Shown piece after piece: positions 31,164-55,653 of a DNA stretch of 64,000 nt. The DNA is from Chloroflexota bacterium. GTDB taxonomy: Bacteria; Chloroflexota; Anaerolineae; Anaerolineales; UBA4823. Every line of letters starts with the position of its first letter. Positions within the stretch are counted from its first letter, which is position 1. The notes under the pieces were generated by a model, which saw only the letters and a program-made list of their open reading frames with translations, was not told where the DNA came from and ran no database searches. The translations under genes and the position numbers were made by a program. The DNA is taken from the NCBI GenBank assembly GCA_029265355.1, contig JAJUJL010000001.1:310001-374000 (forward strand), written 5' to 3'.

Positions 31164-33656
31164 TTACCGGTTGACCATGGGCAAGAATATTTCTTGAACG
31201 CCCTGCCGTTCCGCCAGCAGCGCCCACAAAGAAGCGTGCTGCGGCGCAGCGCTGACCAGGTTGGCTGCGGTATCGACTGCACTGCTCGGCTCGCGCACCC
31301 AGCGCACACCATCCCAGTAATACAATCCCAGCGTGCTCTCATCGGTCCCGGGGAAATCCGCCGGGTCGTACTGCCATTCCACCTGGTAGGGCTTGAGCGG
31401 CTGCTTGTACCCCAAACTTGAAGACATGGTCAACTCATAGTAATACTCTGCGCCGATAGTCATGAAGGTAGCTGGCATATTTCCGTAAAAGCGCGGGCGG
31501 AGATAGACGTAAGTCGTCTCTGTAAATGTATCGGCCGGAAATTCGAGCGTCAGCGAGTAATACTCGCTGGTCAGCAGCCCGCCGGTGATGGGGATACTTG
31601 ACCAACTGGCCGGCGCCTGCCACACCTCGAACAAGCCCTCCGAACCGGCCGCCATGTAAATGAAATCTCCGTTGACGGCCACGTCCCAAACCGCGTAAGG
31701 GTAGCGATAAGAGCCGCTCGTCTTAAGCTCCGTGGGGCTGGCGCGGTAAAGCTTCCCACCCTCCAGATCGCAAGCCACATAGACCTGGCCCGGCATGGTC
31801 AAGAGGTTGTTTGGGTCGCAGCCCAGGTAATGCGAGGCTAAAATGGTGGGCGAGAAGGGATGGGTAACATCCAGCAAGCTCAAGTCGCCGTCATTTCCGC
31901 TGGCTACCGCCAGGTACTGGCCAGATGCACCGGGCAGATCAATGAAGTCCAGCTTGAGCGCATCTTCTACTTCCCAGGGCTTATAGGTGAGCATTCGAGT
32001 AATCGAGAGCGGCTGGGTAACATCTAAAACCGCCACCCCATTATGATAATCTGCCAGGTATGCCAGCAGTTGAGCCGGGCTATCCGGGTTGGGCGCAACC
32101 GCCACCGAGAAAAAGTCAGGCGGATTGAGTAGCGTTTCGGTAAACACGGCAGTCAGCGCCAGCGCAGCGGGATTGGTGATATCCACAATTTGCATCTGCT
32201 GCCGGGAAGCCAGGTAGGCGTTGTTGCCGTGTACAAACACATCGATCGGGTAGCTGCCCAAATTCAGGCTGTCCAGCTCTTGCGGTTGGCTGGGATTTGA
32301 GACATCCACTACGATAAGCTGTTTTATTTCGTCGCCGGTCGACAGATCATAATACCGGTACCCCAGGTAGGCTTTGCCGTCTTGCACCAGGCGCAGAGAT
32401 CCAGGCCGATCCAACCCGCCCACGTACTCCAGCAGGCCTGGCCCCACGCGGCGGTAAATGCGCAAACCCTGTCCGCCTGTGAAGTACAGCAGGTCTCCGA
32501 CCATCTGCAGGCTGCCCACGGAGCCTTCATCCACATACGATCCCAGCGGCGCAGGAATCGCTGGATTGGTGATATTCACCACATCGAATCGATTGCCAGA
32601 ACTCATCAGCGCCAATTGCAGGCCGTTCACCTCGCCGCCAGCTACCCCAGCCAAATTGGTTGGATAGAAGCCAACTTCCACCGGTAGGCCCGGGCCTGAA
32701 GCATCCATCACCAGCAGCCCTTCCTGCAACCCCCTTTGATAAGCCAGCACCTTATCCCCGTACCAATCAAAGCTGTAGATTGCTTTATCAGAAGGGGGAA
32801 AGTTGGTGGAGGCGGCCAGCGCCGGCTGGGCCGGGTTCGCCAGGTCCACCAGGTGCAGGTTGCCATAGTCACCGTCCGCGATCAAGGCGCGGGTACCCTG
32901 CACGGCAAAATCGCTCAAGCTCCACACCGGCAGCGCCAGGCTGCCTGCCAGCACGGGCTGGAGCGGGTTGCTCACGTCCATCACAAAGAATTCGTTTCCA
33001 CTGGAAATCCCATAGGCATACATCTTGCCGTTCACGGGATGCTGCGCCACCTGTACCTGGAGAATATCTTCTGCGGTAGCATAAAGGCTTTTCACTCTGG
33101 ATGGCGCGGCCGGGTTGGACACGTCAAAAATACTGAGATACCCGATCGCGTCGCCAACATAGGCGTATCCATTGAAAACATCTACATCCATATAGCCGTA
33201 CTTGGGTGAAGCAGAAAAGGCGATTTCGGTTGGGGTGGCGGGATTCGACACATCCAATACGTGCAGGCCAGCGCCGGGGCTGGTCGTGTACGGCGCAACT
33301 CCAGGATCCGCCAGGTAGGCATAGTTCCCATCAACATCCACACGAATGGATGGATTGGGCATCAGGTCGCTCTTCCCCAGCAGCGTCGGATTGGCGGGAT
33401 TGGCGATCGAGAAGACATAAAAGCGCTGCCCGACAATGAAATACACCAGGTTGCCGTTGACCGTGATGGCATAATACTGCCCCCAATACTGCTCGACCAG
33501 CTCCATGCCATCGCCGCCGAGTTTTGGATCATCGATCGGAGCCGCCTCCGGCGCGACCGGGTAAGGCACTGCCAGGGCGACCGCGCTGATCAACACCGCG
33601 ACCAATGCTGAAGCGCACAGCGCACATAGTACAAGGAGAGCAATTCGCTTAGCCAT
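31164..33656 (-). CDS. secreted LVIVD-repeat beta-propeller protein
   Basis: 830 residues from ATG 33656 with GGAGG seven bases upstream. A signal peptide (LLVLCALCASALVAVLISAVALA) leads to at least ten LVIVD-type repeats of the form LxVLDVSNPAxPxExxS, for example GLHVLDVSNPATPTEIA, LSIFDVSNPAAPSRV, FFVMDVSNPLQPVLAG and LIVVDVSNPSQPQELD. These fold into beta-propellers. After residue 720 the repeats stop and a beta-sandwich region with several Tyr and Trp follows. The protein ends QEIFLPMVNR, a tail shared in type with the 48248-50665 product. No Cys cluster or catalytic motif is seen; a role in adhesion or surface structure is inferred. Confidence 0.9.
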   Translation of the reverse strand: MAKRIALLVLCALCASALVAVLISAVALAVPYPVAPEAAPIDDPKLGGDGMELVEQYWGQYYAITVNGNLVYFIVGQRFYVFSIANPANPTLLGKSDLMPNPSIRVDVDGNYAYLADPGVAPYTTSPGAGLHVLDVSNPATPTEIAFSASPKYGYMDVDVFNGYAYVGDAIGYLSIFDVSNPAAPSRVKSLYATAEDILQVQVAQHPVNGKMYAYGISSGNEFFVMDVSNPLQPVLAGSLALPVWSLSDFAVQGTRALIADGDYGNLHLVDLANPAQPALAASTNFPPSDKAIYSFDWYGDKVLAYQRGLQEGLLVMDASGPGLPVEVGFYPTNLAGVAGGEVNGLQLALMSSGNRFDVVNITNPAIPAPLGSYVDEGSVGSLQMVGDLLYFTGGQGLRIYRRVGPGLLEYVGGLDRPGSLRLVQDGKAYLGYRYYDLSTGDEIKQLIVVDVSNPSQPQELDSLNLGSYPIDVFVHGNNAYLASRQQMQIVDITNPAALALTAVFTETLLNPPDFFSVAVAPNPDSPAQLLAYLADYHNGVAVLDVTQPLSITRMLTYKPWEVEDALKLDFIDLPGASGQYLAVASGNDGDLSLLDVTHPFSPTILASHYLGCDPNNLLTMPGQVYVACDLEGGKLYRASPTELKTSGSYRYPYAVWDVAVNGDFIYMAAGSEGLFEVWQAPASWSSIPITGGLLTSEYYSLTLEFPADTFTETTYVYLRPRFYGNMPATFMTIGAEYYYELTMSSSLGYKQPLKPYQVEWQYDPADFPGTDESTLGLYYWDGVRWVREPSSAVDTAANLVSAAPQHASLWALLAERQGVQEIFLPMVNR

Positions 33657-46224: not shown

Positions 46225-46282
46225 TGCGGGGTGATGGCGAAAGACATAGCCTTTCGCCATCACCCCGCAATTTATTTTTATT
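46225..46282 (+). terminator. terminator after SRP RNA
   Basis: TGCGGGGTGATGGCGAAAG (46225-46243) pairs perfectly over 19 bases with 46251-46269 around a 7-base loop, followed by ATTTATTTTTATT. Confidence 0.9.
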
Positions 46283-46336: not shown

Positions 46337-47695
46337 TTATTTGTACAGCTCCAGTTTCGAGGGTATCTGGGGATTCTCCTCGCCATCGAAATTCACCACC
46401 ACCTCAGCATTACCAGAAATCTTGACTGTATGCGCGATAATCTGGCAGTTGACCTCGCTGATCTCATCCGGGGTGCCAGTAACATCCACACGGCTATGCG
46501 GCGCATATACCAGTCCCAAGTACTGGTTATCAGAACCCCCGGTTAACGATACCTCCCCCATAGGGGAACCTTCAGTGTCCACATACATCAGCACGCCGGG
46601 CATGGCTTTACCGCTGCTGCAGGCCGTGGTGCAATTGCGCGCCGGGGGGGCGTTCAGGATGATCGTACCGTTGCCGCCAAAAGACACCGACCCATCTTTG
46701 ACGTAAATGGTCACATCATTTCCGGTCAGGTCGCCGCCGTTGACCGAGAATACCTTACTGTTGTTATTGACGCTGCCCATGAAGCAGAACAGACCAGCCT
46801 CCATCACATGCACGCCGTTGTTGATGCTGATGCTGGAATAGCGACCTGGTTCAATGGTGCCATCGCCGTTGTAGTTGCCTCGATTGGGTAAAGAATTGCA
46901 ATCGGCTGTTGGGGGATCCAATTCATAAGACTCGGGCGGCATCGGCGATCCGTTTTCATTGGGGGTTGGTGAAATATTCGCAGAACCGCCGCTCTGGGTG
47001 AAGCAGTCCGGATAAGAGCAGGCTATCTCATAACCACCCTCGACCGTGATATTTCCGCCGCCGCCGACGCTCATGCAGGCATTCGAAAAGATGCCGCCAC
47101 CGGTGACCGTGGCCTCCACACCGCCATCAAATTGCACGCCACCCACGTTGCTGTTGGGACAATCTTCGGCAATGGCAACGATGGCATTGCCGTAAGCCAG
47201 CGGCATGCGCGGGCGGATGCGAGTGATGGCCTCCACGCTGCTTTGCAGAGTTCCGTTGTAAACAAAATGCGCCAGGGAGGTGTTGGTTTGCTTGGTGATA
47301 TAAGTCTTGATATCAATATATTTGTCATCTTTTCCCACCAGATCGATGTCTCCGCAGACAGCATCGACACCGTGGGTATCGGTAATGACTTTGTCGATGG
47401 TGTAGCCGTTCTGCCCTGCTCGGCTAATAGCCGCATCTTCGCCGGCAGTCATTGCAGCCAGCACAGCGCTGCCATTGCAATTCCAATTCACATAACTGGC
47501 GCCGCTGTTTTCGAGACTCACCGCAGCAGCTCCCCCACCTGCCAATGAAGCAGCATCTGCAGCGCTCTGCGCATGCCGGCGATCGGAATACAGCATGCCG
47601 CCATCCAAAGCCAGCGCAGTAAACCCCAGCAATACCACTACACCCAATACCAGCAAGACTAATACCTGCCCTTTTTCGCTGCCTTTTGTTTGCAT
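46337..47695 (-). CDS. TadG-like surface protein
   Basis: 452 residues from ATG 47695. The N-terminus is the TadG/TadE-type anchor: GSEKGQVLVLLVLGVVVLLGFTALALDGGMLYSDRR then HAQSAADAASLAGGGAA. The rest is extracellular, Gly/Asn-rich with many short beta strands (GGGIFSNACMSVGGGGNITVEGG, NNSKVFSVNGGDLTGNDVTIYV) and about a dozen Cys, suggesting a disulfide-stabilised beta-solenoid. PTPNENGSPMPPESYELDPP is a linker. Related proteins are assembled or exported with Tad pili, but the operon contains no pilin or ATPase. Last gene of the four-gene minus operon. Function inferred from the anchor only. Confidence 0.85.
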   Translation of the reverse strand: MQTKGSEKGQVLVLLVLGVVVLLGFTALALDGGMLYSDRRHAQSAADAASLAGGGAAAVSLENSGASYVNWNCNGSAVLAAMTAGEDAAISRAGQNGYTIDKVITDTHGVDAVCGDIDLVGKDDKYIDIKTYITKQTNTSLAHFVYNGTLQSSVEAITRIRPRMPLAYGNAIVAIAEDCPNSNVGGVQFDGGVEATVTGGGIFSNACMSVGGGGNITVEGGYEIACSYPDCFTQSGGSANISPTPNENGSPMPPESYELDPPTADCNSLPNRGNYNGDGTIEPGRYSSISINNGVHVMEAGLFCFMGSVNNNSKVFSVNGGDLTGNDVTIYVKDGSVSFGGNGTIILNAPPARNCTTACSSGKAMPGVLMYVDTEGSPMGEVSLTGGSDNQYLGLVYAPHSRVDVTGTPDEISEVNCQIIAHTVKISGNAEVVVNFDGEENPQIPSKLELYK

Positions 47696-47732
47696 TGCGA
47701 ACGCTCCAATTCTCCTTGCGGTGGATCTATTT

Positions 47733-48230
47733 CTAGTTGCAGGCGGGCGTCAGGATCGTGTCGGTCGCCGAAGCGCTGATGCTGACAGTCTGTGTACCCA
47801 AAATTGCACCCAGGAAGGGCATGGTCAAGGGGAATTGAGTGTATTCCACCTCCACGCGGATACCTTTGCCAGCGCAGGATGCTCCGTCCGGGAAGCTGAC
47901 CGAGATATCCACCACCGGATCGGCGGAGATAGCCACTTCTTCCTCTTCGCCAAAACCCAGGGACGCCGCGCCAGAGCCCGGTTCTTCGCTCGCCAGAGCT
48001 TGCAACACACTGGAGCTATTCATCACCCGCTCTTCAATGCTGTCGGTAACCCCTGGAAATATGGAACCATACATGGCGCCTTCCTGGGCGGCCTCGCGCA
48101 GCGCCATATATGTGAAGATCGCCCTGCCCAGGTCAACCAGGCCAGCCAGCAGCATCAGCAAAAGAGCCAGCGTCAGTGCAAACTCGATCATGCTTTGTCC
48201 ACGTTCACTGCGTTCTATTTGTTCACTCAT
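47733..48230 (-). CDS. TadE-like protein
   Basis: 165 residues from ATG 48230, with GGAGG seven bases upstream; the GTG at 48251 gives a weaker start. ERGQSMIEFALTLALLLMLLAGLVDLGRAIFTYMALREAAQEGAMYGS is the TadE pseudopilin-like segment with the conserved Glu. The outer domain is a short beta region containing two Cys (DGASCAGKG and the C-terminal TPACN), probably disulfide-linked. It lies between the NIDO-like gene and the TadG-like gene. Likely a minor pilus or envelope component whose export uses Tad machinery encoded elsewhere. Confidence 0.88.
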   Translation of the reverse strand: MSEQIERSERGQSMIEFALTLALLLMLLAGLVDLGRAIFTYMALREAAQEGAMYGSIFPGVTDSIEERVMNSSSVLQALASEEPGSGAASLGFGEEEEVAISADPVVDISVSFPDGASCAGKGIRVEVEYTQFPLTMPFLGAILGTQTVSISASATDTILTPACN

Positions 48231-48247
48231 CTCTGCACCTCCATAAC

Positions 48248-50665
48248 TCACCGCCGAAGCAGCGGTAAAAAGGTTTGCCAGGCGCCGTCATAAGCCGCGT
48301 TTCCCCAACCGTACATATTTGTACTGATCGTCGGGTTTGAGCCTGCACCATATTGGAATATCATCGGGGGAGTAACCACCGCCCCACTGCCATCGATCAA
48401 TGCATACCCCAGGTAATTGCTCTGTTCAACTTCCGCCCAGGTCAACACAGCTCGTCCAAAACCATCCCCGCTCACCGAAACCACGCCTGGAGCGCGCCCT
48501 TTCGGCTCATCCAGCAAAACGGGGGCCACAGCCACGTCCATATTCGCGCCGCTCAGCATGGCATACTCGATGGCATTGCTATTGGGCACATTCCATGCCA
48601 AAAACACCTCGCCGTTATTCAATTGTATGCCATCGGTCGTAGAACCATGGCTACCAACGATATCCGTCTCGCTTCTTACCATCGCGCCGTCAACGTCAAT
48701 CAGTTGGTAGACTGTTTGCGTTTGATCATCTACTGGGTTCAAAGGGTCGCCAGGATCCAGGCGCACATAAGCAACCACAGAGCGCCCATCCTGCAGCGCC
48801 ACAATTGCAGGAGTCCGATAGCGAATGCCGCCATGCTGGCTTTGCGTGATCGCAGCCGGTAAACTGACTGCCGAACCAGTGGAGTCGTAAACCGCCAGGT
48901 AAATATCCGAACTGTTGCCATCCTGGAAAGATCGCTCGTCGTTCCAGGCTAAAACAAAGTGGGTGTCTCCGGTTGCGGCGATACGCGGCGAGACAAAGAC
49001 GGGCACATCGTAGTCATCCCTTCCGCGCCAGGCATTATTATCGGTCAGGCGCAGCGCTGGTACGATGGTATTGCCGCTGCTGTCCAGCACTGCAAAATAG
49101 ACGTTCTGGTTGGTGGTCAATCCCTGGGTCAGGATGCGCACCCAGATGGCGCCCACTCGACCGTCCGGCAGGCCGGCCAGCGTCAGAAAGCGGTCCTCAG
49201 TTTTCACCAGCGCACTGGCGTTATCGGTCAGTTTGCGTGCCGGCGCCAGCAATCGCCCAAAACGATTCAGTATCGTGAACTCGAGATTGGTGTGGAAGAG
49301 GGTCAGGGTGGGCGACACCACCACGCTGATATTTTTTTCCCAGGCGTAGAAATAGTTGCCGCCCGGCATTTGCGTCATCGAGATATTGCTGCCGGTAAAT
49401 TGCTCCTCGCTGATGCGCGGGCTGAAACTCGTCTCCTGCCAGGTGAGCTGCAAACGCATTCCCAGCTCAGCGTCGAAATAAGCCTGGGCAAAAGGCGCTG
49501 GCACAGCCGCCTGAATTGTGATTTGCGCCCGCTGCAAGTTATCGGAATTGGAGACAGCTTGCAGGACGCCGTGCGTATAACTGCCAGCGCCAGCGTTGGA
49601 TGGCGCCAGAAGCCTGATCTTCACTTCATAGCTTTCACCCTGGGCTACCGTGCCCGTGCTGGCCGTATTTTCGCCATGCGCCGAGTGCAAGGCTTCACCA
49701 TCAGCATCGTAGAATTCAGCCTGCCAGCCGGGCTGGTCAGGGAGCCAGGAGAGTGTGTATGAGTCTGCGCCCAGCTCTCCGCTGTTGATGATAGTCATTG
49801 TCAGGTCAACCTGCTGCGAGATAGTGAACCCGGAGATGTACACCGGCGTGAGCTTCACCCGGTAAGCTGCCGGCGGGCGCACAAAACGCAACGCGGTAGC
49901 TGTCGACAGGCCGGGCGCATTGTAGAGATATTGCAAACCGTCCGAGCCATGGGCATCTTCGATGCCGACAGTCGCCTCGGTCAGTACGCCTGTCAACGTG
50001 AGATACTGAATGACAATATCGCCGTTTTCGTGCAAGATAGCCTGGAAAGTGATCAGATCATTGCTCCCGATGCGCGCAAATTGATTCCATTGCACGACGA
50101 AATATTTTCCGGTCGGAGAATCGATGGTCTGAACAAATACCTGGCTGATCTTCTCGCCTCCCTGGCCGACCAGCATTATCAGGTCGTCCCAAAATGGGGC
50201 GATAATATTATCGGGGTAGGTGTCGCGCGGCATTGGCCGGTTGACAAATTCGTCGCTTTCCTTGCCAAAGGTGATTATCCCGTTGGTGGATATATAGAGT
50301 TCGGAGAAAGTCTGCTCGTAGAACTTAAAACTGAAACCGATCTGGATCGGACCGGCGTAATCATCATCACGGGTGGTGAAATCTACCGGGGTACCCGAGG
50401 CGGTGGCGTCAAACCAGGCTGGCGTCGTGGTCACCAAGAAATAACCAAACAGATCGCTGACCACACCCTCAGGTGCAGGCATACCTTGCTGAACGCTGGA
50501 GGGATCTGCCTTCACCGGCTGAGCGGGAGTCTCAACAGGGCCGGGTGCGGGTTCAGCCGCCTGCACGCTGCCTGCAAACAGGTTGGCAGCCAACATCCCA
50601 ATTGCCAGGGTTGCTTGAAAAAGCTTACGCAAAAATTTCGGTGATCCGATCATCATGCGCCTCAT
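48248..50665 (-). CDS. large secreted protein with NIDO-like domain and FLP tail
   Basis: 805 residues from ATG 50665, overlapping the preceding stop as ATGA. A signal peptide (LFQATLAIGMLAANLFAGSVQA) leads to a domain with SELYISTNGIITFGKES and DNIIAPFWDDLIM, the pattern of nidogen/NIDO-type domains. A beta-sandwich follows (VDLTMTIINSGELGADSYTLSWLP), then a long region of repeated strand motifs (FVLAWNDERSF, VVAYVRLDPGD, GEVFLAWNVPN, AVLTWAEVEQSNYLGYALIDG) that looks like a propeller. It ends WQTFLPLLRR, like the LVIVD protein's FLPMVNR. Placed inside the Tad-like operon, it is probably an exported surface or adhesive protein. Confidence 0.8.
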   Translation of the reverse strand: MRRMMIGSPKFLRKLFQATLAIGMLAANLFAGSVQAAEPAPGPVETPAQPVKADPSSVQQGMPAPEGVVSDLFGYFLVTTTPAWFDATASGTPVDFTTRDDDYAGPIQIGFSFKFYEQTFSELYISTNGIITFGKESDEFVNRPMPRDTYPDNIIAPFWDDLIMLVGQGGEKISQVFVQTIDSPTGKYFVVQWNQFARIGSNDLITFQAILHENGDIVIQYLTLTGVLTEATVGIEDAHGSDGLQYLYNAPGLSTATALRFVRPPAAYRVKLTPVYISGFTISQQVDLTMTIINSGELGADSYTLSWLPDQPGWQAEFYDADGEALHSAHGENTASTGTVAQGESYEVKIRLLAPSNAGAGSYTHGVLQAVSNSDNLQRAQITIQAAVPAPFAQAYFDAELGMRLQLTWQETSFSPRISEEQFTGSNISMTQMPGGNYFYAWEKNISVVVSPTLTLFHTNLEFTILNRFGRLLAPARKLTDNASALVKTEDRFLTLAGLPDGRVGAIWVRILTQGLTTNQNVYFAVLDSSGNTIVPALRLTDNNAWRGRDDYDVPVFVSPRIAATGDTHFVLAWNDERSFQDGNSSDIYLAVYDSTGSAVSLPAAITQSQHGGIRYRTPAIVALQDGRSVVAYVRLDPGDPLNPVDDQTQTVYQLIDVDGAMVRSETDIVGSHGSTTDGIQLNNGEVFLAWNVPNSNAIEYAMLSGANMDVAVAPVLLDEPKGRAPGVVSVSGDGFGRAVLTWAEVEQSNYLGYALIDGSGAVVTPPMIFQYGAGSNPTISTNMYGWGNAAYDGAWQTFLPLLRR

Positions 50666-51795
50666 GGGATATTGGTCACCACGCTGATCACCTGGCAGTA
50701 CGGCCGGTCAAAAGTGAGCTCGATTTGGTACACGCCCGAATAAATTGCGCTGCCAAAGGTCAACACTAAAGGCGACTGCACATCGGGAAAAGTGCCGCTC
50801 CAGTTGGGGAAGCGTGTGACCGAAGGCGGCAACCAGGAGCTTTTAGCGGGTGGAGCCTCATCAATGCCGAGGAAAGTGATCGATTTCAAGTCCACATTGC
50901 CATCGGTGGGCCAGGAGACATAGATTTTGGTGACGCCAATCGGTATGGTTGGCTCGGAATTGGTGATGGTCCACTTCAGTTTTTTGCGGTTCGGTTCGAT
51001 CTCGACCACTAACGCACCAATTGGGCAACCCGGTGTCGGCGTGGGGGTAAACGTCGGTGTGGCGGTATGGGTTGGAGTGGGCGTAGGCGTATCGGTTGGT
51101 GTAGGCGTCAGCGATGGGCCTGGCGTGGGAGTGTCGGTTTGGGTTGCCGTAGCGGTGTGGGTGGCAGTTTGCGTGGCAGTCGCCGTCGCCGTCGGTGTGC
51201 TGGTTGTGGTGGGCGTAGGCGTCACCGTGGGCGTACTGCTTGGCGTCGGGCTGGGACCGATGGTCGGCTGACGCGTATTGGTCGGGTAAGGCGTGGGCGG
51301 CGTTCCCTGGACTTCTACATCTTTGATAATCGTGCGAGCCGTGGTAGAGGAAATGGGCACCGCCGGGATATTCACCAGGGGCACAATTGGCTGGTAGTTG
51401 ACCGTCACGCTGACCCTCACTCGGTCGCCCAGCTCGACTGTGGCGCCGCTGGGAGGGCAGGCGTTGGCGTAAATATCAGTATCCGGTCCGTGGTCGTACC
51501 CAATTGTGGTGTTGTCTGCAGTAACGCCAGCGATACTCCCCACCCTGACGGCTGCGGCGCGAATCCCAGCGCAGTCCAGGAAATGCGGTACACCACCGCC
51601 GACGTCACCAGCCGCAGCGCCATAACGCGCGGCTTCCCGGCTGGCAGCCGAAACCATGCTGTAAACCAGCAAAAAACGCCCCACTTCGATCAAGCCCAAC
51701 ATCAGTATCAGCAGCAAAGGCAATACCAGGGCGAATTCCACCATGCCCTGGGCTTTTTGGTTTTTGTTCTTCCGGGGAGCATTGTTCTGCACCAT
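50662..51795 (-). CDS. TadE-like protein with Thr-Pro linker and extracellular domain
   Basis: 377 residues from ATG 51795 with AAGGA upstream; GTG 51798 is one codon earlier. KAQGMVEFALVLPLLLILMLGLIEVGRFLLVYSMVSAASREAARYGAA is the TadE-type anchor with the conserved Glu. After an outer domain of about 110 residues comes a Thr-Pro linker of about 95 residues (TATATATQTATHTATATQT, PTPTHTATPTFTPTPTP). A C-terminal beta-sandwich of about 115 residues follows (KKLKWTITNSEPTIPIGVTKIYVSW, FDRPYCQVISVVTNI). First gene of the operon. This anchor-linker-domain layout is unusual for TadE and fits an exposed sensor or adhesin. Confidence 0.85.
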   Translation of the reverse strand: MVQNNAPRKNKNQKAQGMVEFALVLPLLLILMLGLIEVGRFLLVYSMVSAASREAARYGAAAGDVGGGVPHFLDCAGIRAAAVRVGSIAGVTADNTTIGYDHGPDTDIYANACPPSGATVELGDRVRVSVTVNYQPIVPLVNIPAVPISSTTARTIIKDVEVQGTPPTPYPTNTRQPTIGPSPTPSSTPTVTPTPTTTSTPTATATATQTATHTATATQTDTPTPGPSLTPTPTDTPTPTPTHTATPTFTPTPTPGCPIGALVVEIEPNRKKLKWTITNSEPTIPIGVTKIYVSWPTDGNVDLKSITFLGIDEAPPAKSSWLPPSVTRFPNWSGTFPDVQSPLVLTFGSAIYSGVYQIELTFDRPYCQVISVVTNIP

Positions 51796-52128
51796 CACAT
51801 CCTTGCCTGTTTTCTCCTGTCTTCCCCACCCTCACAATGTAATGGGGAAGCTAAATCCAACCGACCTCGTCTCATTTATCATAAACGACAACGCTGAACG
51901 CACGATATTGTTACGAAACAAGCCCAAACTTTCAGGTCCGTAAGTTGTGTTACATTGCAAGGCATTAATGTAATTTTTATTGCCGCTTCGGAGAGGAAAC
52001 CCAGGACTTTCAGCTCCGCCCTGGGTTTTCTCCCGCCCTCCCGGGGTTGGCTATAAAAAATGTTTTTGTTTTTTTGGGGACGGCTTCACCGTCCTCTAAA
52101 AAACCTAAACGCTTCCGCCGTGCTCACG
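51796..52128. other. spacer before the Tad-like operon
   Basis: 333 bases without a supportable gene. AAACCCAGG and CCTGGGTTT near 51999-52035 form a hairpin with flanking GGAG/CTCC pairing. GGACGG and CCGTCC around TTCA near 52078-52095 form a second one. Poly-T/A tracts surround it. The promoter of the Tad-like operon must lie here; no clear -35/-10 pair was found. No riboswitch consensus was recognised. Confidence 0.5.
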
Positions 52129-53235
52129 CTAATTATCTTTGGTTTTCTTAGGTTTGGGCGTTTTGGTTGGCTTGGGTGTCTTGGTGGGCCGTTTCGTTTC
52201 GGTCGGCGTCGGTAAAGGCGCCTCAATCGTTTGTTCCGTGGGTGTAGCGGTGTAGACGGGGAGGCCGCTCGTGGGTGTTGGATATGGAGTATCTGTCAGT
52301 GTCAGCACCAGGGTTGCTGTTGGGGATGGGAATGGGGTAGCAGTGCTGCCTGGTAAAAGGATTGGCGCTGAAGTCTCTGTTGCGGCCGCCTCTTCGAACA
52401 CCGGAAGTGTAGGAGTGGCTATACTCTCTTCGATTTGCTGGATCAAAGCCTGCACCTGGAATTCTCCCGCTGAGGCGATATCCACAGCGCGCTGCAGTTC
52501 CAATGCAGTTTCCGGCGCACTGTTTTGAAGCAGACTCGTAAAGATCGCCTTGCTCCTCTCCAAGGCATGCTCCAAGTCCAGTCCAATCGCCGCGGCGACC
52601 ACCGGGTTGCTTTCGCGAATCTCCAACAGGTTGCTGATCGCCAGTTGGATATGCACCTGCATGCGGTCCAGGGTAGCGGCCAGCCAGGCGGTACGATTTT
52701 GCGCCACTAACGTCTGGGCTTCTTCAGCTCTGCGATCTGAAAAGCGGATGTGCAAGCGGGCATCTTGCGCTGGGCTGAACGCAACGGTGAGCTGGATATC
52801 CTCCATAGCCGTCTTGAGGGGGTATAGGGTCTCTCCAGGAAGGGAAGCAAGCGCCATCGTGGCTGTTACACCGCTAAATACGAAAACCGCCAGTACTACC
52901 ACCAAAGAGATGGCAATCGTCATAGCTCTCGGCGAGAGGCGAACGTACTGGAGCAACGCCAACCAGAGCTGTGACCCGGCATTTTGGCGATGTTTCTGCC
53001 CCTGCTCGGCAACCATCGCCTGCAAGCGAAACCGGGATGCTGCCAGGTAACCGGGGCGCAGATCCAGTGATTGGCGCGCAGCGGTGAGCAGTTGGGCGGC
53101 TTCCAAGGAGGAAAGTAACTGCGATTCGTGCTGCGGATAGCGCGCCGCCAGTTCTTCAGGCTGGCCTTCGCCAGATTCTAAAGCCGCCAAACAGCTTTGC
53201 AAAATATCTTCGATGCTATCTTGCTGTTTCGACAT
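52129..53235 (-). CDS. DUF5667-type membrane protein, probable anti-sigma partner (module 1)
   Basis: 368 residues from ATG 53235; TTG 53238 is one codon earlier. The cytoplasmic N-terminus (EDILQSCLAALESGEGQPEELAARYPQHESQLLSSLEAA) resembles an anti-sigma binding region. One membrane helix, AMTIAISLVVVLAVFVFSGV, precedes the outer DUF5667-like domain: ALASLPGETLYPLKTAMEDIQLTVAFSPAQDARLHIRFSDRRAEEAQ. The tail is Thr/Pro-rich and ends in a Lys-rich block (TKTPKPTKTPKPKKTKDN). It is placed right after an ECF sigma gene. The role is inferred from topology and gene pairing. Confidence 0.8.
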   Translation of the reverse strand: MSKQQDSIEDILQSCLAALESGEGQPEELAARYPQHESQLLSSLEAAQLLTAARQSLDLRPGYLAASRFRLQAMVAEQGQKHRQNAGSQLWLALLQYVRLSPRAMTIAISLVVVLAVFVFSGVTATMALASLPGETLYPLKTAMEDIQLTVAFSPAQDARLHIRFSDRRAEEAQTLVAQNRTAWLAATLDRMQVHIQLAISNLLEIRESNPVVAAAIGLDLEHALERSKAIFTSLLQNSAPETALELQRAVDIASAGEFQVQALIQQIEESIATPTLPVFEEAAATETSAPILLPGSTATPFPSPTATLVLTLTDTPYPTPTSGLPVYTATPTEQTIEAPLPTPTETKRPTKTPKPTKTPKPKKTKDN

Positions 53236-53240
53236 CAACG

Positions 53241-53801
53241 CTACTCTGCTTCTTCTTCCATAATCGATCGTAACGCCGATAACGCCCGGTGTTGCAGCAC
53301 CCGTACCGCCCCTGGAGAGCGCCCCATCACCTGGGCAGTCTCCTCTGGGGAGAGTTCACCCAAGAATCGCAGCACCAACACAGAACGATAATCCTCGCGC
53401 AGTTGAGCCAGGTGTTGGCGGAGTTCGCTGCGCGCAAAACCCGCACTGGTCTGATCTCCTGGGCCCATCTCGGTATCTTGCAGGCTCAGATCCTCGATAG
53501 ACACCTGTCCTCGGCTGTGCACAGATTGGCGGTAATAATCGGTGAGCAAATTGCGAGCGATCCGGAAAAGATACGCCGCGAATGGCAGTCCGCGCTCCTG
53601 ATAGGCTGGCAGCGAGCGCCAGGCTCTCAGAAATACTTCCGTCAGCAAATCTTCTGCATCCAGCCGGTTATCAAGGTGCGCAAATAAGAACCGAAAAACC
53701 CGCGGCGCGTAATGCTCGTACAATTCGCCAAAGGCCTGCGAATCGCCCTTGCGAGCCCGGTTCAGAAGCTGAATTTCGTCAACTTCATCCCCACGGTTCA
53801 T
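53241..53801 (-). CDS. ECF-family sigma factor (module 1)
   Basis: 186 residues from ATG 53801. Region 2: AFGELYEHYAPRVFRFLFAHLDNRLDAEDLLTEVFLRAWRSLPAY and AAYLFRIARNLLTDYYR. Region 4: LREDYRSVLVLRFLGELSPEETAQVMGRSPGAVRVLQHRALSALR, with the helix-turn-helix at the end. It ends two to five bases before the start of the DUF5667 gene, so the two are translated together. It is one of two closely similar sigma/DUF5667 modules that lie side by side; the two sigma factors are clearly paralogous in region 4 (VLQHRALSALR versus ALQHRALSALR). Confidence 0.93.
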   Translation of the reverse strand: MNRGDEVDEIQLLNRARKGDSQAFGELYEHYAPRVFRFLFAHLDNRLDAEDLLTEVFLRAWRSLPAYQERGLPFAAYLFRIARNLLTDYYRQSVHSRGQVSIEDLSLQDTEMGPGDQTSAGFARSELRQHLAQLREDYRSVLVLRFLGELSPEETAQVMGRSPGAVRVLQHRALSALRSIMEEEAE

Positions 53802-53890
53802 TCGCTCACTCTAAAAAACGTGCACAAATGCATTTTGTTACAATTTCCTAAAACATCATGGGCCTTACAGTAATGATATCACAATGAAAA

Positions 53891-53918
53891 CCTCCCCATG
53901 TGTGATCACATGGGGAGG
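53891..53918 (-). terminator. intrinsic terminator between the two sigma modules
   Basis: CCTCCCCATGTG pairs perfectly with CACATGGGGAGG around TGAT. In the minus sense TTTTCATTGT follows. It ends the module 2 transcript 32 bases after its stop. Confidence 0.85.
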
Positions 53919-53950
53919 AGAGCAGTCAACCTTATGAACAGGTGGGGGCA

Positions 53951-55114
53951 TTATGGGCGGTTGTTATTTGATCCTCCCGTATCAGAAGGCTTGGGCGTCG
54001 CGGCTGGCTTTTGCGGGTCGGGCTGTTGAATTTCACCCTGGTTTTGAGGACCGGGGCCAGTGCTGGGGCCATATCCAGCATCCGGCTGGGTCACCTCGCC
54101 CTGGTTCTGGGGGCCGGGGCCGTAGCTGTTGCCATCGCCTTCAGGCGTAGCGAAGGGGCCGTACGGACCATAGCCATCCTCTGGTTGGGTGACTTCGCCT
54201 TGATTCTGCGGACCGGGGCCAGGTCCAGGCCCAACCTGCAGGCCGCAGCCGGGGCAGTCGATCGTATCGCTCACCACTTCCACAGGCTCGGTGCCTTCCA
54301 GCAGTACACCGCTCTCCGCCTGTTCCTGCGCCCAGCGTAACTGGTTGCGGAAAGCCAAGGGATCGGTGATGCCCAGCTCCGACAGGCCAATCTGCAAGCG
54401 CCGCACAGCCTCCAACCGCACCATGGCGGGTTCAACGCCCTCAGGTATCTTGGTGCGAGTCATGAGCTGGTCGCGATCGTGCTTGCGGATATGAACACCG
54501 ATCACTGCCAGGGTGCTGGACATCGCCTCATCATCCAACTGGCTCGCCAGTTCCATGGCGTTGAACACCTGCTCCTGGTAGCGCCGGACAAGCGGCCCCA
54601 TAGTGTTCTCGGTCAATTCGCCCGCGTTCTGCTCCGCATTTTGGCGAGCGAAGGCCAGGATTTCTTCATTGCGCCGGTCGGCAAATTCCAAAAGCAGGTC
54701 GATTTTCTCTGCGGTTGAGCCAGCCAGGCCCAGGCGCACATCTTCGCTCAACAACTTCACGCCATACAGCGCATCATTGGGCATGCTGTCCTGTGCGGCA
54801 TACACCGTCGCGCCTGCCCCGCCAAACAGCAGGCTAAAAACAACCACTAAACTTGTCAATACGGTAACCATCGAATATCGCTCCTTTCTCCTAAATGGAC
54901 TGCTCACTTGATCAAACCATACTTTAAGACGCAGTGAACGTGGAGGAGATACGACGGGTTTGGCAGCTTGCTGTTTTGCAAGTTCCCTGGCTTCTGCCAG
55001 GAAGCGCGCTCGCCCCATGGCCGCTTTCTGCTCGTTGCGGGCGGCCGTGCTCTTCAAGGCTTGCAGGCGTTCAATGACCTGGTTTTCATATTGCTCTGGG
55101 CTATTGGATGTCAT
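53951..55114 (-). CDS. DUF5667-type membrane protein, probable anti-sigma partner (module 2)
   Basis: 387 residues from ATG 55114, overlapping the sigma stop as ATGA. The cytoplasmic part is basic and helical (VIERLQALKSTAARNEQKAAMGRARFLAEARELAKQQAAK). The helix MVTVLTSLVVVFSLLFGGAGATVYA spans the membrane. The outer domain begins AAQDSMPNDALYGVKLLSEDVRLGLAGSTAEKIDLLLEFADRRNEEI, parallel to module 1. The tail differs: three repeats of GPGPQNQGExxQPD separated by Tyr/Gly/Pro sequence. A Cys pair (TIDCPGCGLQ) precedes the tail. Likely a membrane-bound regulator of the neighbouring sigma factor. Confidence 0.8.
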   Translation of the reverse strand: MTSNSPEQYENQVIERLQALKSTAARNEQKAAMGRARFLAEARELAKQQAAKPVVSPPRSLRLKVWFDQVSSPFRRKERYSMVTVLTSLVVVFSLLFGGAGATVYAAQDSMPNDALYGVKLLSEDVRLGLAGSTAEKIDLLLEFADRRNEEILAFARQNAEQNAGELTENTMGPLVRRYQEQVFNAMELASQLDDEAMSSTLAVIGVHIRKHDRDQLMTRTKIPEGVEPAMVRLEAVRRLQIGLSELGITDPLAFRNQLRWAQEQAESGVLLEGTEPVEVVSDTIDCPGCGLQVGPGPGPGPQNQGEVTQPEDGYGPYGPFATPEGDGNSYGPGPQNQGEVTQPDAGYGPSTGPGPQNQGEIQQPDPQKPAATPKPSDTGGSNNNRP

Positions 55115-55653
55115 GATTCAATCTCCATATCCAGGATGCGTCGCAGTGCACTCAAGGCCCTGTGTTGCAGGGCTTTCACCGCCCCAATGGGCTTGTCCAA
55201 CACCGCAGCGATCTCCTGATTTTGCATATCCTCGATAAATCTCAAGATAACAACTTGTCTTTGTTCTGGCGTCAGCAGGCGCACCGCCATGCGTACTCTT
55301 TCCTGCTCGATCCTCTCGCTAACCATATCCGACGGGTCCGGGTCATTGCCAGCCTGCAGGCTGTACTCCAGCGGGATGCTCGGCGGAGGTTGGCGGCGAA
55401 ATGTATCGGTGATCCAGTTATGAGCGACGCGGTACAGGTAGGCTTGCAAATGCTGCTGAGGTCCGATGCCATTCCTCATGGCTCTTAAAAATCGGCTGAA
55501 CGTCTCTGCAACACACTCCTCTGCCAAATCCTCATCGGCCAACAGGCGCAGCGCGTATCGATAAAGCTTTGGACTGTAGGTGTCGTAGATCTCAGCCAAC
55601 GCTTGCTCATCAAACTCACGGGCGCGCTGCAACAAGGTACTTTCATCGCTCAT
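55111..55653 (-). CDS. ECF-family sigma factor (module 2)
   Basis: 180 residues from ATG 55653. Region 2 is in ALAEIYDTYSPKLYRYALRLLADEDLAEECVAETFSRFLRAM and LQAYLYRVAHNWITDTFRR; region 4 in LLTPEQRQVVILRFIEDMQNQEIAAVLDKPIGAVKALQHRALSALRRIL. The stop overlaps the DUF5667 start by four bases. Compared with module 1 it has a longer, acidic linker between regions 2 and 4 (GNDPDPSDMVSERIEQ). It is transcribed away from rsmA, with a 220-base divergent spacer in between that must hold both promoters. Confidence 0.93.
   Translation of the reverse strand: MSDESTLLQRAREFDEQALAEIYDTYSPKLYRYALRLLADEDLAEECVAETFSRFLRAMRNGIGPQQHLQAYLYRVAHNWITDTFRRQPPPSIPLEYSLQAGNDPDPSDMVSERIEQERVRMAVRLLTPEQRQVVILRFIEDMQNQEIAAVLDKPIGAVKALQHRALSALRRILDMEIES

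Follow-up and report, generated by a model that had tools for sequence, protein, structure and literature searches.

An operon of three genes for Tad-type pilins and one for a secreted NIDO protein raises the question of whether its products belong to a Tad pilus or form a surface structure of their own. A distinct surface complex that borrows Tad-type export had been proposed in a preliminary description. The operon was studied in a window of 64,000 nucleotides, the whole stretch of DNA that was analysed, which covers positions 310001-374000 of contig C19 in a 64-contig, 5.05-Mb genome (G000).

Organisation and conservation of the operon

The module occupies positions 46337-51798 of the minus strand in the tightly packed order A-NIDO-C-D. 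Gene A (50662..51798) encodes a TadE-like minor pilin (PF07811, E-value 4e-14) of 378 amino acids from a GTG start; the following codon, at 51795, is an ATG. Its reading frame overlaps the NIDO gene (48248..50665; 805 amino acids; PF06119, 2e-8) by four nucleotides (ATGA). Gene C (47733..48251) codes for a short TadE-like minor pilin (PF07811, 1.8e-12) of 172 amino acids from a GTG. An ATG at 48230 behind a GGAGG is probably the better start; it would yield 165 amino acids and lies 17 nt after the NIDO stop codon. A gap of 37 nt separates C from D (46337..47695), a TadG-like pilin of 452 amino acids (PF13400, Tad, 4.6e-11; DUF7305, 1.7e-5, slightly below the cut-off). Open reading frames and Pfam matches agree with the earlier view of two TadE-like, one TadG-like and one 805-residue NIDO protein in a tight operon. 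A hairpin of 19 pairs with a T-rich tail on the plus strand (46225..46269) lies between D and a convergent gene, presumably for aconitase, at the operon boundary. It has the longest stem among the terminator-like sites, which number 12 in the region versus 10.2 in shuffled sequences.

The conservation of the gene order, for which the preliminary description had proposed a check across Chloroflexota, was followed through the NIDO protein. Among 396 genomes of the class, 119 (the own genome included) had NIDO matches, about 12 of them near full length and most others in the NIDO domain region only. At the 15 loci around the best matches, from 14 genomes and several limited by contig ends, blastp detected no counterpart of A, C or D. 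This test combined blastp with a loose motif, which flagged a few unrelated reading frames. Taken alone, it suggested a gene order unique to this genome, an interpretation that was rejected after a wider scan of contigs with alignment A1. The scan yielded 56 loci, of which 20 (L112-L131, many on the same contigs as the 15 loci) were checked for Tad neighbours; the other 36 (L132-L167), mostly from other phyla with matches to the NIDO domain only, were left out of this check. A-NIDO-C-D was found in 3 of the 20 loci: L112 (uncultured Chloroflexi LaPlata_bin-0303, genome G396), L125 (Anaerolineales bin917, G397) and L131 (Anaerolineales Zod_Metabat.740, G398). With the window, four genomes share the order. 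This is a small sample, and three of the linked loci come from metagenome bins; the repetition of a four-gene order in three other genomes is more than chance. The remaining 17 loci carried full or partial NIDO relatives with no TadE or TadG match, and L113, L118 and L126 were shorter than 4 kb. Two of these short contigs are labelled Archaeoglobales (L113) and Acidithiobacillus (L118) and are probably mis-binned Chloroflexota DNA.

The linked proteins have diverged considerably. Identities to the window in L112, L125 and L131 are 39, 36 and 32% for NIDO, 48, 37 and 34% for A, 47, 52 and 49% for C, and 49, 48 and 40% for D. The NIDO tree separated the four linked proteins from 14 unlinked ones with a branch support of 100/99, and the D tree separated the four linked D proteins from 18 others with 100/100; both trees were midpoint-rooted for drawing only. 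That linked NIDO and D proteins each group alone fits genes travelling together. Inside the group, NIDO of the window pairs with L112 (99/96), with L131 on a long branch, and D of L112 pairs with L125 (94/87). This disagreement argues weakly against strict co-inheritance in detail.

Immediately upstream of the module lie genes for a DUF5667 protein (52129..53238, minus strand; PF18915, 1.7e-13) and an ECF-type sigma factor (53241..53801, minus strand; Sigma70_r2, 3.2e-19; r4_2, 1.4e-12). The sigma gene holds the same position in L125 (63% identical) and L131 (53%), and so does a DUF5667 relative. L112 has no DUF5667 relative there and carries a response-regulator-like gene instead. The pair, present in three of the four genomes, may control the module, with the DUF5667 protein as a possible partner of the regulator. 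Positions 52129-55653 of the window comprise two ECF sigma/DUF5667 pairs in tandem, whose DUF5667 proteins have low-complexity tails. In L125, one such pair lies on each side of the module.

Predicted structure of the pilins and the NIDO protein

Protein A consists of a conserved base (residues 1-165), a Thr-Pro-rich stalk (about residues 166-257; 51028..51303 on the minus strand, from translation and alignment) and a C-terminal cap (about 259-378). The Thr-Pro linker and outer domain noticed earlier in one TadE protein are confirmed. The base is 53, 58 and 46% identical to those of L112, L125 and L131 over 160-176 amino acids. Beyond it the proteins vary: the window protein and L112 have a Thr-Pro stretch, L125 has four Calx-beta domains and L131 has Ig/PKD-type domains. 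The cap is perhaps common to A proteins. For the window, the indication is a weak match (E-value 0.0046) to a cap profile of A proteins from A-C-D loci of the same taxonomic order, found in one of six seed runs; cap searches that started from the window, L112, L125 or L131 retrieved the seed only. Prepilin-type motifs, as read by eye, are retained in A and C.

An AlphaFold2 model of D (pLDDT 72.5, pTM 0.62, from 4 sequences) has a long N-terminal helix, a small head and a beta-solenoid (residues 163-438) of the ice-binding-protein (DUF3494) type. This model of moderate confidence agrees with the solenoid seen in the preliminary description. It superimposes on the ice-binding protein FfIBP (4nu2; Z 15.3, 192 residues, rmsd 3.1) and, with residues 27-445, on the pilin ComZ (6qvi; Z 12.7, 307 residues, rmsd 7.2). 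Foldseek gave no match for the model at an E-value of 0.001 or below, and PDB sequence searches from two alignments, the D profile included, gave no convincing chain. A PHROGs search had no match, and the best NCBIfam matches were far under their cut-offs. D is thus predicted to be a pilin with a DUF3494-like solenoid; a fold shared with an ice-binding protein is no proof of function.

Judged by eye, the NIDO protein begins with a signal peptide of Sec type, which is likely cleaved after VQA at residue 36. The NIDO domain (about 70-265) matches PF06119 with 34.9 bits over profile positions 2-111 of 186, above the curated cut-off of 25. Among the linked relatives, L125 passes the cut-off, L112 is slightly below (22.8 bits) and L131 has no match at an E-value of 0.1 or below. 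An Ig/NEW3-like domain (about 270-387), labelled from a sub-threshold Pfam match (E-value 0.12) and predicted strands, precedes a beta-propeller (388-795) and the tail FLPLLRR; the inner limits of the domains were set by eye. The AlphaFold2 model has a pLDDT of 83.8 and a pTM of 0.77 from 15 sequences, with low values at residues 31-67 and 798-805. From residue 392 onward, six four-strand groups and a split one indicate six or seven propeller blades. The region 388-795 superimposes on the propellers of CylK (Z 31.5, 316 residues, rmsd 3.0) and the lectin PLL4 (Z 28.7, 309 residues, rmsd 2.8). The comparison chiefly concerns the propeller and barely covers the other parts; the PilY1 structure 3HX6 is not among the 50 matches listed, which says nothing either way. 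The Pfam model for the C-terminal part of PilC/PilY1, which we take to be Neisseria_PilC, had no match in the window proteins at an E-value of 1 or below. With its own Sec-type signal peptide, as read by eye, the NIDO protein need not borrow Tad-type export, and the earlier proposal is not supported in this respect.

The last 14 residues of the NIDO protein (48248-50665) hold a motif of an aromatic residue or His, Leu, Pro, a hydrophobic residue and finally a hydrophobic residue, Ala or Thr. It recurs in a second protein of the window (31164-33656) and in L198, L207, L121 and L123. In a sample of the own genome, 4 of 382 reading frames (NIDO included) end with it versus 14 of 10146 internal 14-residue tiles (p 0.0035), and all four have hydrophobic N-termini. 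Other Chloroflexota loci had the motif in 11 of 463 reading frames versus 8 of 12042 tiles; eight of the 11 are NIDO relatives, in a sample biased to NIDO loci. None of 166 reading frames in L132-L167, mostly from other phyla, had it. The tail is possibly a sorting signal of Chloroflexota.

These properties bear on an alternative that keeps A, C and D as the Tad tip and takes NIDO to be an adhesin or glycan-binding protein independent of them, either extracellular or bound to the wall, which shares the operon solely because surfaces require both. The NIDO relatives found here are mostly free-standing, so the fold is not confined to pili, and the protein shares its C-terminal tail with unrelated, probably secreted proteins. 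However, the gene sits between both tadE genes in four divergent genomes, the reading frames overlap or nearly touch in the window, and the linked NIDO proteins form their own group. An independent NIDO protein is possible and rather unlikely.

Tad machinery and minor-pilin sets

The window has no match to the Pfam models of Flp, peptidase A24, the TadA-type ATPase or TadB/C, the single models that were also used for each genome-wide search. The reported absence of pilin, peptidase and TadABC thus holds for the window and not for the genome. All machinery matches of G000 are located on other contigs, apart from an ATPase on C19 at a distance of over 190 kb from the window, and the module indeed does not adjoin a complete tad locus. 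Contig C4 encodes an Flp-like pilin, CpaB, TadZ, TadA, TadB and TadC in a row. The names CpaB and TadZ are our assignments by eye, and the Flp match has 28 bits, below the Pfam cut-off of 32.2. A second Flp-like match on C4 (357715-357846), also below the cut-off, lies apart from the Tad core. The only peptidase A24 match is on contig C46 and adjoins a gene that we take to be murA-like.

Four TadE matches were found in G000, two in the module and two on C46. There, a second minor-pilin set follows the peptidase: a TadE, a TadG with a presumed vWA domain, and a TadE with Thr-Pro stretches and a part that appears PA14-like. This last protein has 896 amino acids (L005, 8434-11124) and is encoded behind the TadG-vWA-like protein. 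Two TadA-like ATPases lack TadB/C neighbours, C19:112569-113402 (L014) and C46:190177-191025 (L016). Next to the former are genes that, by eye, resemble those of response regulators and kinases; counterparts of this ATPase with 67-69% identity are encoded in G396 and G398.

The three related genomes differ in completeness. TadB/C-type matches are present in all of them and the TadA-type ATPase in G396 and G398. CpaB-TadZ-TadA-TadB-TadC are contiguous in both of the latter, with CpaB cut by the contig end in G396 and TadA 85% identical to that of G000. A prepilin peptidase above the cut-off is encoded by G396 and G397, and G398 has no match even at an E-value of 10 or below. TadE matches number 4, 2 and 2 in G396, G397 and G398. 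The Pfam model search found no TadA-type ATPase in G397, where what is left of tadC continues through a run of N into an unrelated reading frame (100 N in this 18-kb stretch). Because tadC breaks at the run of N, the missing TadA may be an assembly gap; G397 was therefore rejected as proof of a module without TadA. Tad core and prepilin peptidase occur together with the module in G000; the combination is incomplete in two of the relatives, as the searches gave no TadA in G397 and no peptidase in G398. Bifidobacterium breve likewise has its prepilin peptidase in a separate locus, as described in PMC6916266. PMC12488501 describes both pilus types in Chloroflexota without secretins and Tad in about a third of the genomes.

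Matches to D were detected in 207 of the 396 class genomes, often in the N-terminal part only. Twenty D loci were chosen as good matches and are not a random sample; one of them (L111) is the flank of a NIDO contig. In 15 of them, from 15 genomes that all belong to the same taxonomic order as G000 (family label f2), A, C and D are consecutive. A peptidase gene directly precedes A in 14 of the 15, and the other locus, L093, is cut at A. None of the 15 has a NIDO match. The arrangement was not seen in L092, L097, L098, L110 and L111, two of which (L097 and L110) are cut by contig ends. Six loci (L103-L108) have a second set after A-C-D, both sets forming one locus between presumed murA- and glmS-like genes. 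The peptidase-murA locus of G000 and G396 contains the second set only, and A-NIDO-C-D lies away from the peptidase in G000, G396 and G397. Several paralogues of the TadG-solenoid type occur near single loci, with five D matches in L096 and three each in L095 and L093.

The module is probably a minor-pilin set that has moved away from the other parts of a split Tad system and carries one extra gene, because A-C-D without NIDO adjoins the peptidase in 14 of 15 genomes of the same taxonomic order and the machinery of G000 is elsewhere. With the core on C4 and the peptidase on C46, a tip set of a Tad pilus is also preferred over the distinct surface complex of the preliminary description. In such a complex, the helices of A, C and D would be mere membrane anchors and NIDO would complete the assembly without TadA. 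The stretches read around the module in the four genomes, 64 kb for the window and 15-18 kb for L112, L125 and L131, contain no TadA, TadB, TadC or peptidase gene, and the bulky stalk, solenoid and propeller would suit a static structure. A pilus-free complex is nevertheless improbable: a Tad core is present in G000, G396 and G398, the lack of TadA in G397 may be an assembly gap, A and C keep prepilin-type motifs (by eye), and 14 of the 15 A-C-D loci from the same taxonomic order directly follow a peptidase gene. A chance insertion of an unconnected NIDO gene between the tadE genes would explain its absence from the 15 A-C-D loci and is very hard to credit, given four genomes with NIDO proteins 32-39% identical to that of the window and grouping apart along with their D partners.

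A candidate tip adhesin and its relation to known systems

Gene order, tree grouping, signal type and fold together lead to a reading in which the operon combines minor-pilin genes for the tip of a Tad (type IVc) pilus with one added non-pilin gene, and in which NIDO is the tip adhesin. We give it about an even chance. The C46 peptidase would cleave A, C and D, whose N-terminal helices are pilin-like. Following published models of Tad tips, the three proteins would assemble as a TadE-TadE-TadG tip on an Flp filament built by the C4 core. NIDO would be exported via Sec and then dock on this tip. Its propeller may serve as docking or scaffold part, with the NIDO and Ig-like domains pointing outward as binding part, as is thought for PilY1 on type IVa pili. 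The varying stalk of A and the solenoid of D could provide extra reach or binding surface.

A Sec-exported, propeller-based adhesin on a Tad tip may be the Chloroflexota counterpart of PilY1, with an independent origin: a NIDO-propeller surface protein that once stood alone would have been captured into a tadE-tadE-tadG operon. This reading is tentative and falls somewhat short of an even chance. If true, the NIDO protein would be a testable molecule for attachment and aggregation in Chloroflexota. In the examined genomes, tad loci can look incomplete because core, peptidase and tip sets lie apart. No description of an operon of this kind was found in the excerpts available from the open-access (PMC) literature on Tad, TadE/F/G, NIDO, PilY1 and Chloroflexota.

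Herrou et al. (PMC12075869) modelled Tad tips as interchangeable heterotrimers of TadE/F/G type with variable outer domains. Within Chloroflexales, the genes rcpC-tadZABC, tadEEG and flp occur in three species (PMC7332563). Like the module, tadEEG and the KilL-KilM-KilN Tips of Myxococcus (PMC12075869) co-encode TadE- and TadG-type pilins with extended, varying outer domains and occur in more than one set per genome; the second set of G000 is on C46. In contrast, the Tips as described in PMC12075869 are pilins only, and the module adds a Sec-type non-pilin NIDO/propeller protein. CpaL of Caulobacter, a TadG-type protein with a vWA domain, is predicted at the pilus tip (PMC12607857). D resembles it as a TadG-type pilin with an outer binding domain, although D has a solenoid and the vWA-type TadG of G000 belongs to the C46 set. 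ComZ, a competence pilin of Thermus (6qvi), is similar to D in its large size and fold but is not a Tad pilin.

The C-terminal part of PilY1 is a beta-propeller. PilY1, a non-pilin adhesin at the tip, is conserved towards its C-terminus and variable in its N-terminal part; its gene lies among those of minor pilins and is translationally coupled in M. xanthus (PMC13190605). NIDO shares with PilY1/PilC the large size, the secretion as a non-pilin (by its signal peptide, read by eye), the position among minor-pilin genes, a C-terminal propeller, predicted for NIDO, and a differing N-terminal binding part. It differs in lacking a PilC/PilY1 Pfam match, in its NIDO and Ig-like N-terminus instead of a vWA domain, and in partner pilins of Tad instead of type IVa. 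In the most likely reading, NIDO would work like PilY1 without being a recognised member of the family. The Tad tips in the literature consulted are pilins with fused outer domains (for instance PMC12075869); a non-pilin tip subunit, if true, would mean that the PilY1 principle arose twice. The comparison suggests that a Tad pilus may be able to bear a tip adhesin that is a protein of its own, comparable to PilY1 on other type IV pili.
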